Source: Deltaproteobacteria bacterium
Lineage (GTDB): Bacteria > Desulfobacterota > Desulfomonilia > Desulfomonilales > Desulfomonilaceae
Direction: 5' to 3'
DNA: 33,974 bases
Assembly (NCBI GenBank): GCA_021777225.1
Contig: JAJYDQ010000043.1
Location: 1-33,974 of the forward strand
This document shows, in pieces, positions 7,798-14,575 of the stretch (within the stretch, counting starts at the first letter, position 1; every line of letters begins with the position of its first letter). The notes beneath the pieces are model-generated. The model worked only from the letters and a program-made list of their open reading frames with translations. It was not told the origin of the DNA and did no database searches. A program made the position numbers and the translations under genes.

Positions 7798-8278
7798 AAT
7801 AGTAATCGAGGAATTGTATTGCTTGGATATGTAGGTCGGGACGAGACTTTTTTCATGGGAATGGCCCTGGATTTAGCCGTTAAAGCTTTGAGTCTGGGCG
7901 AGACCCCGGTAGGGGCCGTCATCGTTAAACAGGCGACAATAATAGGCGCTGGTTTTAATAAAGTGGAAATGGAACATGATCCTACTGCGCACGCCGAGAT
8001 TGTCGCCCTTCGAAAAGCGGCGAGAGCCCAGGGTGATTGGAGATTGAAAGATTCTACCGTTTATGTTACTTTAGAACCTTGTGTAATGTGCGCAGGGGCC
8101 CTCTTGAACGCGCGGGTAGAACGAGTGGTTTTTGGCGCTTGGGATATTAGATACGGCGCATTTGGCAGCTTGTTCGATCTCGCCCATGACCCCAGATATA
8201 ATCACGAAATTGAGATTAAATCAGGGGTTATGCAGAAAGAATCGGCCGAATTACTGCGGGATTTTTTCAGACAACAGC

Positions 8279-8370
<92 letters not shown>

Positions 8371-8446: not shown

Positions 8447-8477
8447 TTGTTTATATTTAAGAAATATTTGATATAAT
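8447..8477 (+). promoter_or_regulatory. Candidate promoter for the signalling cluster
   Basis: TTGTTA (8447-8452) and a perfect TATAAT (8472-8477) are 19 bases apart. The -10 is preceded by TGA, making an extended -10 (TGNTATAAT) that tolerates the long spacing. It lies about 50 bases before the kinase start and downstream of the tRNA gene. Confidence 0.5.
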
Positions 8478-8526
8478 AGAATATTACATTTTCTTACCTT
8501 CTGAACATCGCAGAAGGGAACACTTT

Positions 8527-10653
8527 GTGCAAGACAAGACAAGACAAGACAAGACAAGACAAGACAAGACCCAGGAACCACCAGTCGATGAATTGACCGG
8601 CCTGCGATCGCGAGCGGAAGCCACCTTACCAGAAACGTCCATAACTCATCCTGGCGTATCTGGGCTATCCGCTGCAGAAACCCAAGAACTGGTTCACGAA
8701 CTCCAAGTCCATCAGATAGAATTGAAAATGCAGAACGAGGAACTTCTCAGGACCCAGCGAGAACTTGGAGACTCGCTAAATCGTTACCATGACCTATATG
8801 ACTTTGCGCCTGTGGCCTACATTACATTGGACAACCAAGGGTTTATCCTGGAAGCCAATCTAACAACAAGCGGTCTGTTGGATGTTGCTAAAGCATCTCT
8901 CTACGGGCAGCCCTTCTCCCGTTATGTCCTGAAAGATGACGCCGACCTCCTTTATCTGAAGATCAGAGAGGTTTTCGAGACACCACTCAAACATACTTGG
9001 GAAATGAGACTAGTTAAACACTCAGGCGGCGCCCAAATGTATGTTCAAGTAGAAGGCATGGCGGCACAGGATCGACAGGGTAATTTTACTGGAGCGCGAA
9101 TTGCAATATTGGATATCACCGAGCGCAAGCGACGAGAAGAGGCTCAGCGCCGACTATCGACAGCAGTAGAGCAAGCGGCGGAAGGAATTCTAATCACTGA
9201 CACTCAGGGAATAATTCAATATGTTAATCCTTCTCTTGAACGTATTTCCGGATATAGCAAAACTGAACTCCTTGGAACAAAGAGCAATATTTTCAATAGT
9301 GACGAACACGATCAGGCATTTTTTAAAGATCTATGGGATACAATTAATGCCGGAAATGTATGGACTGGTAGATTTACCAATAAAAGGAAGGATGGGGTTT
9401 TATATTACGTAGACGCCACTATCTCGCCTGTTAAAGATTCTACAGGTAAAATTATTAATTTTGTCGCAATTAAACGGGACGTCACCGAACACCTTGAACT
9501 TTCCAGACAACTTCTCCAGGCCCAAAAAATGGAAGCTATTGGGACCCTAGCCGGTGGGATGGCTCACGATTTCAACAACATTCTCCAGGTAGTTTTGGGA
9601 TACTCGGAAGTCATTCTCCAGGGCAAAAAGGCGCCTGAATTCGACCATGACAACATAAAGAAGATATACCAGGCCGGAAAAAGTGGAGCCGAGCTTGTTA
9701 AGGGCCTAATGATTTTCAGCAGAAAAGCTGAGATCCAACCGAAGCCGATCAACCTCAATGAGCAAGTTGAACAGCTCACCGGGATGTTAGCCAGAATAAT
9801 CCCCAAAATGATCGAGATTGAGCGGATACTCGCTCCTGACCTGGCCGGAATCAATGCTGACACGACCCAGATGGATCAGGTTCTTATGAACCTTGCCGTC
9901 AATGCGAAAGACGCCATGCATGATGAGGGTAAACTCACAATTGAAACTGCAAACGTAGTTCTGGATGACGAATATTGCAGAGCGCATATTGGGGTCAGTC
10001 CCGGTCCATATGTCCTCCTTATGGTCTCGGACACTGGTCATGGCATCGAAAAGGAGACACTTACTCGGATCTTCGAGCCTTTCTTCACAACTAAGGCAGA
10101 AAGTAAAGGAACCGGTCTAGGGCTGTCTACAGTGTACGGCATCGTCAAGCAGCACAACGGCTCTATTGACTGCGAAAGTGAGCCGGGGCATGGGACCACA
10201 TTCAAGATCTATCTCCCTGCGATCTCAAAAAACGAAGCGGTCTCGGAATCCACAACTAAGGCAACCAGACCCAAAGGTAGAACCGAGACCATTTTGGTCG
10301 TAGATGATGAAGAGTCTGTAAGAGGCATGATCGAGCAGATTCTCAGTCGGGCGGGTTACAAACTTATGACCGCCTGTGATGGCAAAGAAGCCCTGGATTT
10401 GTACAAACAGGAAGGCGCACGGATATCATTGGTCATTCTGGATCTCATGATGCCTAAGATGGGCGGACAGAAGTGTCTTGAGGAACTTTTAAAGATTGAT
10501 CCACAAGCAAAAGTTCTAATAGCTACGGGCGTGTCTTCTAACAATCAACAAACTAGCCTGACAATTGACTCTGGAGCAAAGGCGGTCATACATAAGCCGT
10601 ATGATATTGATCTACTGCTAACGACGGTTCGAGATATCCTGGACAGGGATTGA
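8527..10653 (+). CDS. Hybrid sensor histidine kinase (PAS-PAS-HisKA-HATPase-REC)
   Basis: A soluble two-component hybrid kinase of 708 residues. Order by hand count: QDKTR repeat (2-15), Gln/Glu-rich helix HELQVHQIELKMQNEEL (about 55-80), PAS (about 88-201), PAS (about 208-325), HisKA with AGGMAHDFNN and phospho-acceptor His347, HATPase with NLAVNAKDAM, DTGHGI and TGLGLS boxes (about 440-568), and a receiver with Asp593/Asp594, phospho-acceptor Asp639 and Lys690. No transmembrane segment or signal peptide is seen, so it should sense cytoplasmic cues. The start is GTG at 8527 with GAAGGG 8 bases upstream; TTG at 8525 is in another frame. The N-terminal helix and first PAS closely resemble those of the third gene of the cluster. 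A 22-base gap leads to the CheB-CheR gene. The ligand is unknown. Base composition by eye is more GC-rich than gyrB. Confidence 0.93.
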   Translation: MQDKTRQDKTRQDKTQEPPVDELTGLRSRAEATLPETSITHPGVSGLSAAETQELVHELQVHQIELKMQNEELLRTQRELGDSLNRYHDLYDFAPVAYITLDNQGFILEANLTTSGLLDVAKASLYGQPFSRYVLKDDADLLYLKIREVFETPLKHTWEMRLVKHSGGAQMYVQVEGMAAQDRQGNFTGARIAILDITERKRREEAQRRLSTAVEQAAEGILITDTQGIIQYVNPSLERISGYSKTELLGTKSNIFNSDEHDQAFFKDLWDTINAGNVWTGRFTNKRKDGVLYYVDATISPVKDSTGKIINFVAIKRDVTEHLELSRQLLQAQKMEAIGTLAGGMAHDFNNILQVVLGYSEVILQGKKAPEFDHDNIKKIYQAGKSGAELVKGLMIFSRKAEIQPKPINLNEQVEQLTGMLARIIPKMIEIERILAPDLAGINADTTQMDQVLMNLAVNAKDAMHDEGKLTIETANVVLDDEYCRAHIGVSPGPYVLLMVSDTGHGIEKETLTRIFEPFFTTKAESKGTGLGLSTVYGIVKQHNGSIDCESEPGHGTTFKIYLPAISKNEAVSESTTKATRPKGRTETILVVDDEESVRGMIEQILSRAGYKLMTACDGKEALDLYKQEGARISLVILDLMMPKMGGQKCLEELLKIDPQAKVLIATGVSSNNQQTSLTIDSGAKAVIHKPYDIDLLLTTVRDILDRD
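8531..8570 (+). repeat. (AAGAC)8 pentanucleotide tandem repeat inside the kinase start
   Basis: Eight perfect head-to-tail copies of AAGAC begin one base after the GTG start codon of the histidine kinase and encode a QDKTR repeat. Five is not a multiple of three, so gain or loss of one unit shifts the reading frame. No comparable tract was noticed elsewhere in the window. Confidence 0.98.
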
Positions 10654-10675: not shown

Positions 10676-13600
10676 ATGGCAAAAAGGAAGGAAGCCTCAA
10701 TCAAAGAAGCCGTGAAAACTCTTCCTACGGCATCTAAACCTAAGGTTGTCCGCTCAGACGGCGCCATTGAGGAAAAAGATCCTATAGACGAGATCCAGGA
10801 GATCAACGCTTCCAATAGCAATGGTCAAGAAAATATTCCGATAGTTGGCATAGGGGCCTCAGCCGGTGGGCTGGAAGCCTTTAACAAGTTTTTCACTGCA
10901 ATGCCCGTGGACAGCGGTTGCGCCATTGTTCTGGTTCAGCACCTGGACCCGACCCACAAGAGCATGCTCACCGAACTTGTTCAGCGTTACACCACCATGA
11001 ATGTTGTTGAAATTCAGGATGGTATGGATATTAAACCTAACACTGTGTTTGTAATCCCCCCAAACAAGTACGTGGCGATCCTACATGACAAACTTCACTT
11101 GATTGAAACTCCAGCTCCTCCCATTATGAAAACACCGATTGATTTCTTTTTCAGGTCATTGGCTCAAGACCGAAAAGACAAAGCTATTTGCATAGTCCTT
11201 TCCGGAAGCGGGAGCGAAGGCGCTATGGGGTTACGCGCGATAAAGGGCGAGGGCGGCATGGGTATGGTTCAGACTCCTGAATCCTCAAAGTACGACGGAA
11301 TGCCCAAAAGCGCCATAGCGACAAATCTGGCGGATTATGTCCTTGCGCCGGAGGATATGCCCAAAGAGCTTATTTCCTATCTCCAATTTTCATCAAGGAA
11401 AGTACCTCTAATTTCCGCAAAACATTCTGCTGCGGAAATTGATAAGCTTCAAAAAGTGGTTCTTTTGGTTCGTTCTCAAACTGGACAAGATTTTTCCGTA
11501 TTCAAGCCCAACATGGTAATGCGCCGTGTTGAGAGACGCATGGCGATAAATAAAATTGGCGACGCGTCAGACTATGTCCGCTACATGCAACAATATCCAA
11601 CTGAGGCGAAACACCTCCAGAAAGACTTGTTGATAGGTGTCACGAGTTTCTTCCGCAACCCAGAAGCTTTCGACACAGTGAGAGATAAGGCTATTGTGGA
11701 GTTATGCAAAAAAAAGGACCCAAGCAATCCTCTAAGAATTTGGGTCCCTGGTTGCTCCACAGGCGAAGAAGCGTTTTCTCTGGCCATGATTTGCCAGGAG
11801 TGTCTGGCCAAACTCAAGATCAGCATCCAGGTGCAGATTTTCGGCACCGACCTGGATGAAACGGCTATCGGCATAGCTCGTCTCGGTTTGTATCCAAAAA
11901 GTATCGCGGAGGATGTGCCGGTTCAAATACTTAATCGTTATTTCATCCAGGAGGACGGATCATACCGGGTCAGACAAGACACAAGAGACATTATCGTTTT
12001 CGCTGTTCACAATGTGGTAAGTGACCCGCCATTCTCCAGGATTGATCTCATCAGTTGCCGGAATCTTCTCATATACCTGAATCCTGATACCCAGAAAAAA
12101 GTCATTGCTCTGTTCCATTACTCCCTGGCTCGCCAAGGTCTCCTTTTTCTTGGGACTGCGGAAACTGTCGGAGACCAGTCCGCGGATTTTTCAACTGTGG
12201 ACAGAAAATGGAAACTTTACAAGCGCCTGGAATCGGCTAGCCCAGCCAAGACTTTGTTACTGTCTGCTTCAGATCAGCTAGCGGCGGACAATCTTATAAC
12301 CTCACGAGGACAGGAGCCTATGAAGATGAGCAAGAAACCCGGTTTCCGGGAACTAACGGAAAGAATCCTGTTGGAGAGCTTCAGCCCCTGCGCCGTCATA
12401 ATTAGTGAAAAAGGCGAAATCCTTTATGTTCACGGCCGCTCCGGCAAGTACCTCGAAATTGCGCCTGGTGAGGCGAACCTGAACCTGCTGGCGATGGCAA
12501 GAGAGGGTCTGCGGTTCGAGCTTGCGAGCGCAATAAGAAAAGCGGTTACCGAAGACAAGGAAGTCCGCCAGGAAAGACTGAATGTAAAGACAAATGGGGA
12601 CGAGCAAGTAATCAATTTGATAGTGAGACCAGTGTTGGAAGAACCTGCCATCAAAGGATTGCTCATGGTGGTTTTTGAAGACGTTCCAGTTGACAAAACC
12701 ACGAGAAGAAGGAAAAGAAAATCAGCCTCAATTCAGGACGAAGAGTCTCCACACATCCTGAAATTGGAGCAGGAACTTCAAACAGCGAAGGAATATCTCC
12801 AGAACGTCCTCTCAGAAAAAGAGGCATACAATGAGGAACTCAGGTCTCTCACCGAAGAATTCCAGTCGTCCAATGAGGAACTGCAATCCACCAACGAGGA
12901 GCTGTTGACCTCTAAAGAAGAACTGCAATCCGTAAACGAAGAGCTGATCACTGTTAATGCAGAACTTGAGCAAAAGATAGATGAGTCTACCCGAGAGGTC
13001 AACGACATGCAGAATCTGCTGGCCTCCACCGGAATTGGGACGCTATACCTGGATAGCGATCTGAATATTCGTCGTTTTACGCCGGCCATGGTTGAATTCA
13101 TGAATCTCATAAAGACAGATGTAGGCCGCCCTGTCAGCCATGTCGTGTCAAAAACCCATTATGACAGACTGTTTGAAGACGCGACAGAAGTTCTACGGAC
13201 CCTTGCGCCCAGACAAATGGAAATTCAAACAAAGGATAATAAATGGTACACAATTCGTATAGGGCCGTACAGGACCTCTGATAATGTAATAGACGGCGTA
13301 GTGGTGACTTTCAATGATGTCACGAAACTCAAGGTTATCGAAGGCCGGGCCCTAGCGGCTCAGAAATTTGCTGAAAGCGTTGTAGACACAGTACGTACTC
13401 CCTTGATGGTGTTGGACACTAATTTGAAGATATTGTCAGCGAATTTTGCTTTTTACCATAAATTCATGACTGCAAAGGAAGCGATAGTGGGCAGGTCGCT
13501 GTTTGAGCTTGATAGTAAGGCATGGGACATTCCGGAACTTAGGAATTTGTTGGAAAAGATTGTGCCAGAAAAGAAAGCCATTGATGACTTTATTGTCGAG

Positions 13601-13726
13601 CATGACTTCGGAAAAACAGGCACACGAAAACTTGTGCTAAATGCTCGACAAGTATCGGATGTCAACGAGGAAAAGGAGATGATTCTCGTCTCGTTTGAGG
13701 ATCTTTCCAAAGATGAGAACAAATGA
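10676..13726 (+). CDS. CheB-CheR fusion with PAS domains
   Basis: A 1016-residue fusion of a chemotaxis-type methylesterase, a methyltransferase and PAS modules. The CheB part (about 53-235) has GASAGGLEA (Ser62) and VQHLDP (His89); the third catalytic position reads SGSGSEG with Glu181 where the usual motif is SGTGSDG. The CheR part (about 260-520) shows VMRRVERRM, GVTSFFRN, the SAM motif GCSTGEEAFSLA (from Cys360), FGTDLD and ISCRNLLIYL. A PAS-like domain (about 561-671), a coiled coil of repeated S/T-NEEL units (about 700-778), and two more PAS domains (about 781-891 and 895-1014) follow. There is no kinase domain at the C-terminus. It lies 22 bases after the kinase and has an AGGAG site. 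No receptor, CheA or CheW is nearby, so its substrate is unknown and a non-chemotaxis role is likely. Confidence 0.93.
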   Translation: MAKRKEASIKEAVKTLPTASKPKVVRSDGAIEEKDPIDEIQEINASNSNGQENIPIVGIGASAGGLEAFNKFFTAMPVDSGCAIVLVQHLDPTHKSMLTELVQRYTTMNVVEIQDGMDIKPNTVFVIPPNKYVAILHDKLHLIETPAPPIMKTPIDFFFRSLAQDRKDKAICIVLSGSGSEGAMGLRAIKGEGGMGMVQTPESSKYDGMPKSAIATNLADYVLAPEDMPKELISYLQFSSRKVPLISAKHSAAEIDKLQKVVLLVRSQTGQDFSVFKPNMVMRRVERRMAINKIGDASDYVRYMQQYPTEAKHLQKDLLIGVTSFFRNPEAFDTVRDKAIVELCKKKDPSNPLRIWVPGCSTGEEAFSLAMICQECLAKLKISIQVQIFGTDLDETAIGIARLGLYPKSIAEDVPVQILNRYFIQEDGSYRVRQDTRDIIVFAVHNVVSDPPFSRIDLISCRNLLIYLNPDTQKKVIALFHYSLARQGLLFLGTAETVGDQSADFSTVDRKWKLYKRLESASPAKTLLLSASDQLAADNLITSRGQEPMKMSKKPGFRELTERILLESFSPCAVIISEKGEILYVHGRSGKYLEIAPGEANLNLLAMAREGLRFELASAIRKAVTEDKEVRQERLNVKTNGDEQVINLIVRPVLEEPAIKGLLMVVFEDVPVDKTTRRRKRKSASIQDEESPHILKLEQELQTAKEYLQNVLSEKEAYNEELRSLTEEFQSSNEELQSTNEELLTSKEELQSVNEELITVNAELEQKIDESTREVNDMQNLLASTGIGTLYLDSDLNIRRFTPAMVEFMNLIKTDVGRPVSHVVSKTHYDRLFEDATEVLRTLAPRQMEIQTKDNKWYTIRIGPYRTSDNVIDGVVVTFNDVTKLKVIEGRALAAQKFAESVVDTVRTPLMVLDTNLKILSANFAFYHKFMTAKEAIVGRSLFELDSKAWDIPELRNLLEKIVPEKKAIDDFIVEHDFGKTGTRKLVLNARQVSDVNEEKEMILVSFEDLSKDENK

Positions 13727-13765: not shown

Positions 13766-14575
13766 GTGGATAATAAGGATAATTCTGTAGATGATATGAG
13801 AAGGGGGGCCGAAGCCATAGTAAACGAGAAGCTTGCGGCTCTTTCTGATACTCCTAGATTATCCTCCGAAGAATTGACAAGCCTTGTTCACGAGCTGCAG
13901 GTTCACCAGGTTCAACTGGAAATGCAGAACGAGGCGCTACGTGAAGCTCAACTTGCTTTACAAATGGCGCACGACAAGTACATTGAACTTTATGACTATG
14001 CTCCCGTAGGCTACCTTACGGTCGACAACCGAGGGATTATTCACAAAGCGAATCTCGCATCTACCCATTTGTTGGGAGTGGACAGGATGTTACTCATTGG
14101 AAACCCCATCTCTCGTTTTGTCTTCAAAGACGATTCGGATAGTTTTTATTCCAAGTTCCAACAAATTTTCGCGACGCACGAAAAACTAATATGCGAACTC
14201 AGATTCATCAGGCATAACGGCGGTGAGTTTTATGCTCAAGTGGACGGCATGGCGGTAGAGGACAAAGAAGGGCGTTCTACCTTTGCGCGATTAATAGTAT
14301 CGGACATCACGGAGCGTAAGCGTATAGAAGAGGAAAAAGAGCGCCTGATACTCGAGCTTCAGAACGCTCTTGCTCAAGTGAAGAAGCTCAGTGGATTTAT
14401 TCCCATTTGCGCTTCCTGTAAGAAGATACGCGATGACAAGGGCTATTGGCGCCAGGTCGAAGAATACATAAGGGATCACTCGGAGGCCCTATTCAGCCAT
14501 AGTATGTGTCCTGACTGTATGAAAAAATTGTATCCAGAGATTGCTAATAATGTTCTTGGCAAGCTGGAAAAATGA
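13766..14575 (+). CDS. PAS protein with Cys-rich C-terminal module
   Basis: A 269-residue soluble protein. Residues about 40-80 form the helix VHELQVHQVQLEMQNEAL, followed by a PAS domain to about 190 ending in the usual DITERKR. A short coiled coil leads to a C-terminal module that begins SGFIPICASCKKIRDDKGYW and ends HSMCPDCMKKLYPE, with two CxxC pairs that could bind a metal. This tail is common at the end of PAS proteins in Desulfobacterota and related bacteria; no function is established as far as I know. There is no kinase, cyclase or DNA-binding domain. Its N-terminal half is a paralogue of that of the kinase at 8527. GTG is chosen as start because GGGAGGAC lies just upstream. It follows the CheB-CheR gene by 39 bases and probably completes that operon. 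Confidence 0.85.
   Translation: MDNKDNSVDDMRRGAEAIVNEKLAALSDTPRLSSEELTSLVHELQVHQVQLEMQNEALREAQLALQMAHDKYIELYDYAPVGYLTVDNRGIIHKANLASTHLLGVDRMLLIGNPISRFVFKDDSDSFYSKFQQIFATHEKLICELRFIRHNGGEFYAQVDGMAVEDKEGRSTFARLIVSDITERKRIEEEKERLILELQNALAQVKKLSGFIPICASCKKIRDDKGYWRQVEEYIRDHSEALFSHSMCPDCMKKLYPEIANNVLGKLEK

Follow-up and report, generated by a model that had tools for sequence, protein, structure and literature searches.

The hybrid kinase locus and its CAAGA tract

The window analysed here, 33,974 nucleotides in length, is the whole of contig C40 of genome G000 (4.04 Mb, 153 contigs, 97.6% complete). Its plus strand, on which all features of this section lie, encodes a hybrid histidine kinase of 708 amino acids (8527–10653), recognized from its open reading frame and domain matches. 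A PAS domain (about 9181–9489) is followed by HisKA (about 9541–9726), HATPase_c (about 9859–10221) and receiver (about 10291–10629) domains; the last three, expected together in a hybrid histidine kinase, occur in one chain and all score above the Pfam cut-offs. We take AHDFNN to be the H box and LVILDLMMP to be the receiver aspartate motif. A gene 22 nt 3′ of the kinase encodes a CheB-CheR-PAS fusion protein (10676–13726) and, judging by the spacing, probably belongs to the kinase operon. It contains a 42-nt tandem repeat in about two copies (12878–12966) and is followed after 39 nt by a gene for a PAS protein (13766–14575), whose N-terminus is like that of the tract-bearing kinases described below.

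On the 5′ side, a tRNA-Ser(CGA) gene (8279–8368) overlaps with its first 32 nt the 3′ end of a tadA-like deaminase ORF (7819–8310) on the same strand. This tRNA is the sole Rfam match in the window, and the idea of an RNA element acting at the locus was rejected. Between the tRNA and the kinase lies a promoter-like site, TTTATA-16-TATAAT with TG preceding the second hexamer (8450–8477); it is only suggestive, since shuffled sequences average 0.7 such sites against the one found.

The putative GTG start codon of the kinase (8527–8529) is preceded by a Shine-Dalgarno (SD) sequence, GAAGGG (8513–8518; −5.6 kcal/mol with the anti-SD; GAAGGGAA, 6 nt spacing), and followed directly by a 100% perfect (CAAGA)8 tract (8530–8569), which codes for QDKTR repeats and can be read equally as (AAGAC)8 at 8531–8570. 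Among the nine rows of a tandem-repeat scan of the window, the tract ranks second by score, and no other row exceeds four copies. Exact searches of the 4.04-Mb genome for the 20-mer made of four AAGAC units returned this tract and one other, on contig C144, and nowhere else; the reversed control pattern gave no occurrences.

An earlier note on this DNA, made from the sequence alone, had described eight perfect five-base units behind the kinase GTG and predicted that their gain or loss switches the gene. The repeat itself is as described, and its frame arithmetic holds in silico. Eight units keep 708 codons open, as do five (703 codons) and eleven (713 codons), whereas tracts of six, seven, nine and ten units yield only 19, 19, 24 and 24 codons. 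As the note had worked out by hand for seven and nine units, seven bring a TGA (8589–8591) into frame after CCA GGA ACC ACC AGT CGA, and nine bring in another slightly further on (8594–8596); in silico, ten units meet the first of these stops and six the second. An in-frame TTG at 8593–8595 is a possible internal or reinitiation start, whose best SD (−4.3 kcal/mol) is poorly spaced at 15 nt. Contingency loci are recognized by a repeat unit indivisible by three at the 5′ end of a coding sequence, and by an early stop on unit gain or loss with other counts restoring the frame; the window gene shows both. The third mark of such loci, variation of unit number among related copies, is seen here between species and between paralogues.

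Tracts at kinase genes of related genomes

Tracts of at least four perfect units are present in three of the seven genomes of the genus (G000, G003 and G004) and in none of the 11 other genomes of the family; in a phylum-wide sample of 395 genomes, tract matches were found in two, G000 and G004, both of this genus. The window tract is one member of a multi-locus family of eight long tracts (5, 6, 7, 8, 8, 8, 11 and 11 units), two of them in G000 and six in G003 and G004. G003 carries a single long tract of seven units (contig C171), while G004 carries five, of 8, 6, 11, 5 and 11 units. All eight directly follow an xTG codon, which is GTG in seven cases and CTG, a poor start codon, at G004 C13. 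An SD sequence of −5.6 to −12.4 kcal/mol is situated 5–6 nt upstream of the xTG in every copy. All three genomes with long tracts are draft assemblies, each of between 120 and 260 contigs.

The second tract of G000, also of eight units (C144:44171–44210), sits at the corresponding position of the gene for a paralogous histidine kinase, which shares 61% identity with the window kinase across residues 293–707, and is preceded by GAGGGAACACTTT-GTG, as in the window gene. As assembled it is out of frame and stops after 24 codons; in silico, seven or ten units would open 583 or 588 codons. Just after the tract (L009 8211–8216) the C144 gene is one base shorter than both of its orthologues, and this difference shifts which unit numbers open the frame. 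The missing base may be a true loss or a sequencing error.

Most members of the family are out of frame. Only the window copy is in frame as assembled, and the other seven of the eight are not; the chance of at most one in-frame copy among eight, at one in three each, is 0.195. Two of the G004 tracts, C2b and C51, head frames of only about 95–107 codons and probably belong to pseudogenes. The remaining bodies are diverse. The frame behind the C2a tract has 1602 residues and contains six PAS stretches together with GAF, HATPase_c and receiver domains, HisKA being absent among the matches listed; C31a encodes PAS-HisKA-HATPase_c-receiver, with HisKA just below its cut-off; C13 is a PAS-HisKA frame that runs off the contig end; the C144 kinase and its G003 orthologue, which carries the C171 tract, have HisKA-HATPase_c-receiver bodies. 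What several kinases share is a 5′ module consisting of the SD, the xTG, the CAAGA tract and a 'DLRSRAEA'-like leader, while the bodies behind it differ. G004 is very rich in related kinases: a first-look search with the kinase as query listed 395 candidates there, more than in any other of the 41 genomes searched.

Outside the genus, the pattern TG(CAAGA)3CAAG matched 10 stretches in GTDB-wide contigs, six of which are the kinases described here. The other four, in Dyella, Gemmobacter, Akkermansiaceae and Microbulbifer (3, 4, 3 and 14 full units), follow CTG; the longest frame from this CTG at the three lengths tried is 213 codons, and inspection of the frames at these four tracts revealed no kinase-like translation. 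Viral contigs contained no exact match to the 21-base tract pattern.

A predicted leader hairpin, CCTTCTG-aacatcg-CAGAAGG (8497–8517, plus strand), would bury the SD of the window gene. Its SD core is paired as strongly in 0.6% of composition shuffles, and the wider region 8480–8640 folds no better than shuffled sequence (z −0.46). The fraction of shuffles at least as paired is 0.006, 0.058 and 0.022 for leaders of the window group, 0.076, 0.228 and 0.210 for those of the C144 group, and 0.344–0.940 for eight G004 leaders, which form a stem of different bases, not beyond chance. Only the window group exceeds shuffled leaders, and a conserved SD-burying hairpin as an extra regulatory layer was dropped.

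Short-tract relatives, length change and selection

A composite of the shared N-terminus gave 45 matches in six of the seven genus genomes. The surroundings were inspected for 26 of them (one, G004 C2:15331, is cut by a contig end) and for seven further long-tract rows; a motif scan of the other 12 found no further tract, although such a scan can miss interrupted tracts, as it missed the one at G004 C31b. Eight genes with short tracts were tallied (G003 C7; G002 C210 and C113; G004 C31b, C85, C6, C116 and C5). Left out of the tally were the degenerate G004 C111, which has an internal stop, and the tract-less G001 C141. Two of the tallied tracts, G004 C31b and C85, are interrupted and about four units long; that the long tracts are pure is in part a matter of construction, because exact patterns were used to find them, and is not counted here as evidence.

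Six of the eight short-tract members are in frame from GTG or TTG, and the two others, G004 C116 and C5, are short broken frames. Among the in-frame members, G003 C7 is broken further along and both G002 genes run off their contigs. The contrast with the long tracts, of which one in eight is in frame, gives a Fisher p of 0.04, which is only indicative because the compared rows are related. Tracts of about two units (CAAGACAAGAC; CAAAACAAAAC in a single case) are found in the orthologues of the window gene in G003 and G002 and in the G002 orthologue of the C144 gene, all of them in frame from the same GTG. The orthologous series thus read 2, about 2 and 8 units for the window gene and 2, 7 and 8 units for the C144 gene. 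The tract-less relative begins ATG-ACG-CAA-GAC-AAG, encoding MTQDK. Since the short-tract orthologues are in frame at the GTG and the tract-less relative starts MTQDK, the GTG would most simply be the ancestral start, and the tracts would have grown from a two-unit seed coding for QDKT.

Comparison of flanks points to fast change in unit number. Between G002 C113 (two units) and G003 C171 (seven units), the 45 nt preceding the start are identical and 6 of 180 positions beyond the tract differ, whereas further upstream 72 of 289 aligned positions do. In G004, C31a (five units) and C51 (eleven units) differ at 10 of 302 aligned positions of the 5′ flank; on the 3′ side of the tract 38 of 163 aligned positions differ, with 34 gap columns. 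Because the 3′ flanks differ far more than the 5′ flanks, the history of this latter pair appears to be mosaic. With flanks nearly constant and unit counts varying, unit number changes faster than the adjoining bases. The earlier note had proposed comparing repeat numbers in related genomes, and had named a uniform number across deep reads and strains as speaking against switching; the count proved non-uniform in the comparison made, which is between species.

The C144 kinase and its G003 orthologue are both out of frame from the GTG as assembled, yet 570 codons behind the tract are still open in both. Their 181 differences fall at codon positions 1, 2 and 3 in the numbers 35, 32 and 114, giving dS 0.358, dN 0.058 and a ratio of 0.163. 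Against the in-frame G002 orthologue (466 codons) dN/dS is 0.109 for G000 and 0.144 for G003. Pairwise values of this kind also average over any periods that the genes may have spent in frame. Private synonymous and nonsynonymous changes in the C144 gene number 44.5 and 17.5 in G000, 20 and 15 in G003, and 24 and 9 in G002; constraint on the G003 copy may be somewhat relaxed, its private changes being richer in nonsynonymous ones. The frame of the C144 gene appears to have been maintained overall, as a reversible switch predicts, and internal starts could explain this too. As to whether tract-bearing genes are kept functional, the ratio of 0.163 for this pair stands beside truncated frames at two of the eight long tracts. 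Decay is also seen at a short tract: the greater part of the kinase body is gone from G003 C7 (L140, about 3684 down to 3250, minus strand), the orthologue of the window gene, and the CheB-CheR-like frame beside it stays open.

Low dN/dS in copies whose GTG is out of frame is also predicted if ribosomes reinitiate, or start directly, at an in-frame ATG, GTG or TTG beside the out-of-frame stop, so that unit number would set the amount of kinase or its N-terminus rather than its presence. Seven of the eight long-tract copies, all but G004 C2b, have both out-of-frame stops no more than 14 nt away from the first in-frame start that follows the tract, and in the window both TGA codons, at 8589 and 8594, adjoin the TTG at 8593. 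Because stops and in-frame starts adjoin in this way, genes in the OFF state could stay partly on. Against this explanation, the first internal starts have weak or badly spaced SD sequences (−1.7 to −4.3 kcal/mol versus −5.6 to −12.4 kcal/mol at the xTG), and the xTG itself is in frame in six of the eight short-tract members; we regard such a rheostat or leaky switch, the chief rival reading, as unlikely. Translation beginning solely downstream of the tract, raised in the earlier note, is retained as a rival and was lowered in rank, with the short-tract members mostly in frame at the GTG and the strongest SD there.

The scarcity of in-frame long tracts (one in eight) and the two truncated frames would also be expected of a neutral microsatellite, in which a slip-prone CAAGACAAGAC seed expands in redundant kinase paralogues and long tracts mark genes heading for loss, with no benefit from switching. 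The lost body of the G003 orthologue of the window gene, the more numerous nonsynonymous private changes in the G003 copy of the C144 gene and the abundance of kinase candidates in G004 fit this view as well. It accounts poorly, however, for a dN/dS of 0.163 at the observed dS over 570 open codons between two out-of-frame orthologues, and for a tract that stands at the same codon each time, in eight genes from three genomes. No tandem array above threshold other than CAAGA was found in 54 loci, which were selected for these kinases and total 312,996 bases, and no other short tandem repeat with units of 4–9 bases at four or more copies in loci L011–L039 and L042. Neutral expansion is, in our judgement, rather improbable. 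It is very improbable that the unit numbers are assembly or sequencing artefacts, even though the tract-bearing genomes are drafts and G003 and G004 match MAG records, given that the same tract stands in the same place in three genomes, that the two-unit and seven-unit species share their 45 nt before the start, and that tracts of 25–55 bp are shorter than ordinary reads.

A predicted sensor-kinase switch and its known counterparts

A translational phase-variation switch at the 5′ end of the kinase gene is the explanation that we consider best and, on balance, likely. The earlier note's reading of a phase-variable kinase gains support from the variation in unit number across orthologues and paralogues, from short-tract orthologues in frame at the GTG and from the low dN/dS of two orthologues that are both assembled out of frame. 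These features, like the tract and its reading frames, are read from the sequence; we infer that slippage is the mechanism, that populations switch, that the GTG is used and that signalling is affected. Slipped-strand mispairing would add or remove CAAGA units directly after the GTG; eight units, and also five or eleven, would yield the full kinase, and other numbers would lead to truncation at about 20 codons. As the length of CAAGA is not a multiple of three, one in three unit numbers would yield the kinase. Because the same 5′ module sits on several kinases, each cell lineage would then express a random combination of active sensor kinases, and a population would hold many combinations. The sequences are thus probably best read as a multi-locus, opa-like set of phase-variable hybrid kinases in a Desulfomonile-type lineage.

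Desulfomonile are free-living anaerobes, and repeat-driven phase variation is treated mostly as a host-adapted habit that concerns surface structures, restriction systems and a few regulators. More tentatively, at a confidence somewhat short of even, we speculate that a lineage of probably free-living anaerobes uses independent random pentamer switches on hybrid kinases to hedge its bets with a combinatorial repertoire of sensors, which arose as one 5′ module repeatedly spread and expanded over different bodies (one, two and five long-tract loci in the three genomes). If this is true, Desulfomonile-type cells would diversify what is sensed and not only what is shown, and switching of kinases at multiple loci could be tested with existing metagenome reads. 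In the open-licence literature we found nothing on phase variation in Desulfomonile, or with tandem repeats in Desulfobacterota, and the accessible portions of that literature on phase variation of sensor kinases and on short repeats contained no multi-locus family of pentamer-switched kinases.

Several described systems share parts of this arrangement, as far as the available portions of the sources indicate. Among them are two sensor kinases known to be switched at homopolymers, BvgS and FlgS. Beggiatoaceae carry TAACTGA heptamer arrays, mostly intergenic and upstream of the starts of many unrelated genes, which are proposed to be regulator binding sites (PMC4679880). Like the present tracts, they are short direct repeats found close beside start codons in bacteria that are not pathogens; the CAAGA tracts, in contrast, are coding, lie after the start, belong to one kinase family and have a frame-shifting unit. 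In Campylobacter phasomes, MCP-domain signal proteins are listed among the repeat-bearing, putatively phase-variable genes, but their repeats are G or C homopolymers of about 8–11 and the products are chemoreceptors, not hybrid kinases (PMC6321876). The flgS/flgR pair of Campylobacter jejuni offers a closer case of two-component signalling genes under phase variation, with A/T homopolymer tracts described for flgR; these homopolymers are situated in the coding sequence of single flagellar regulators (PMC3930126).

A repeat frameshift that switches a sensor kinase is described for bvgS of Bordetella pertussis, which is controlled by a C6/C7 tract (PMC1891110). There the repeat is a homopolymer inside the coding region of one gene, whereas here a pentamer begins at codon 2 in up to five genes per genome; the switch of the window kinase may work like the BvgS type without being a member of it. 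The multi-locus aspect finds its likeness in the gonococcal opa genes, of which each lineage has a random set active, as proposed here for the kinases (PMC13183285). The Opa products are outer-membrane surface proteins of a human pathogen, while the window gene encodes a PAS/kinase/receiver protein, and the genes compared are hybrid kinases of uncultured bacteria whose switching is predicted from sequence. What is new is probably that opa-like switching would act on sensor kinases, and in bacteria other than the host-adapted ones in which it is usually seen.
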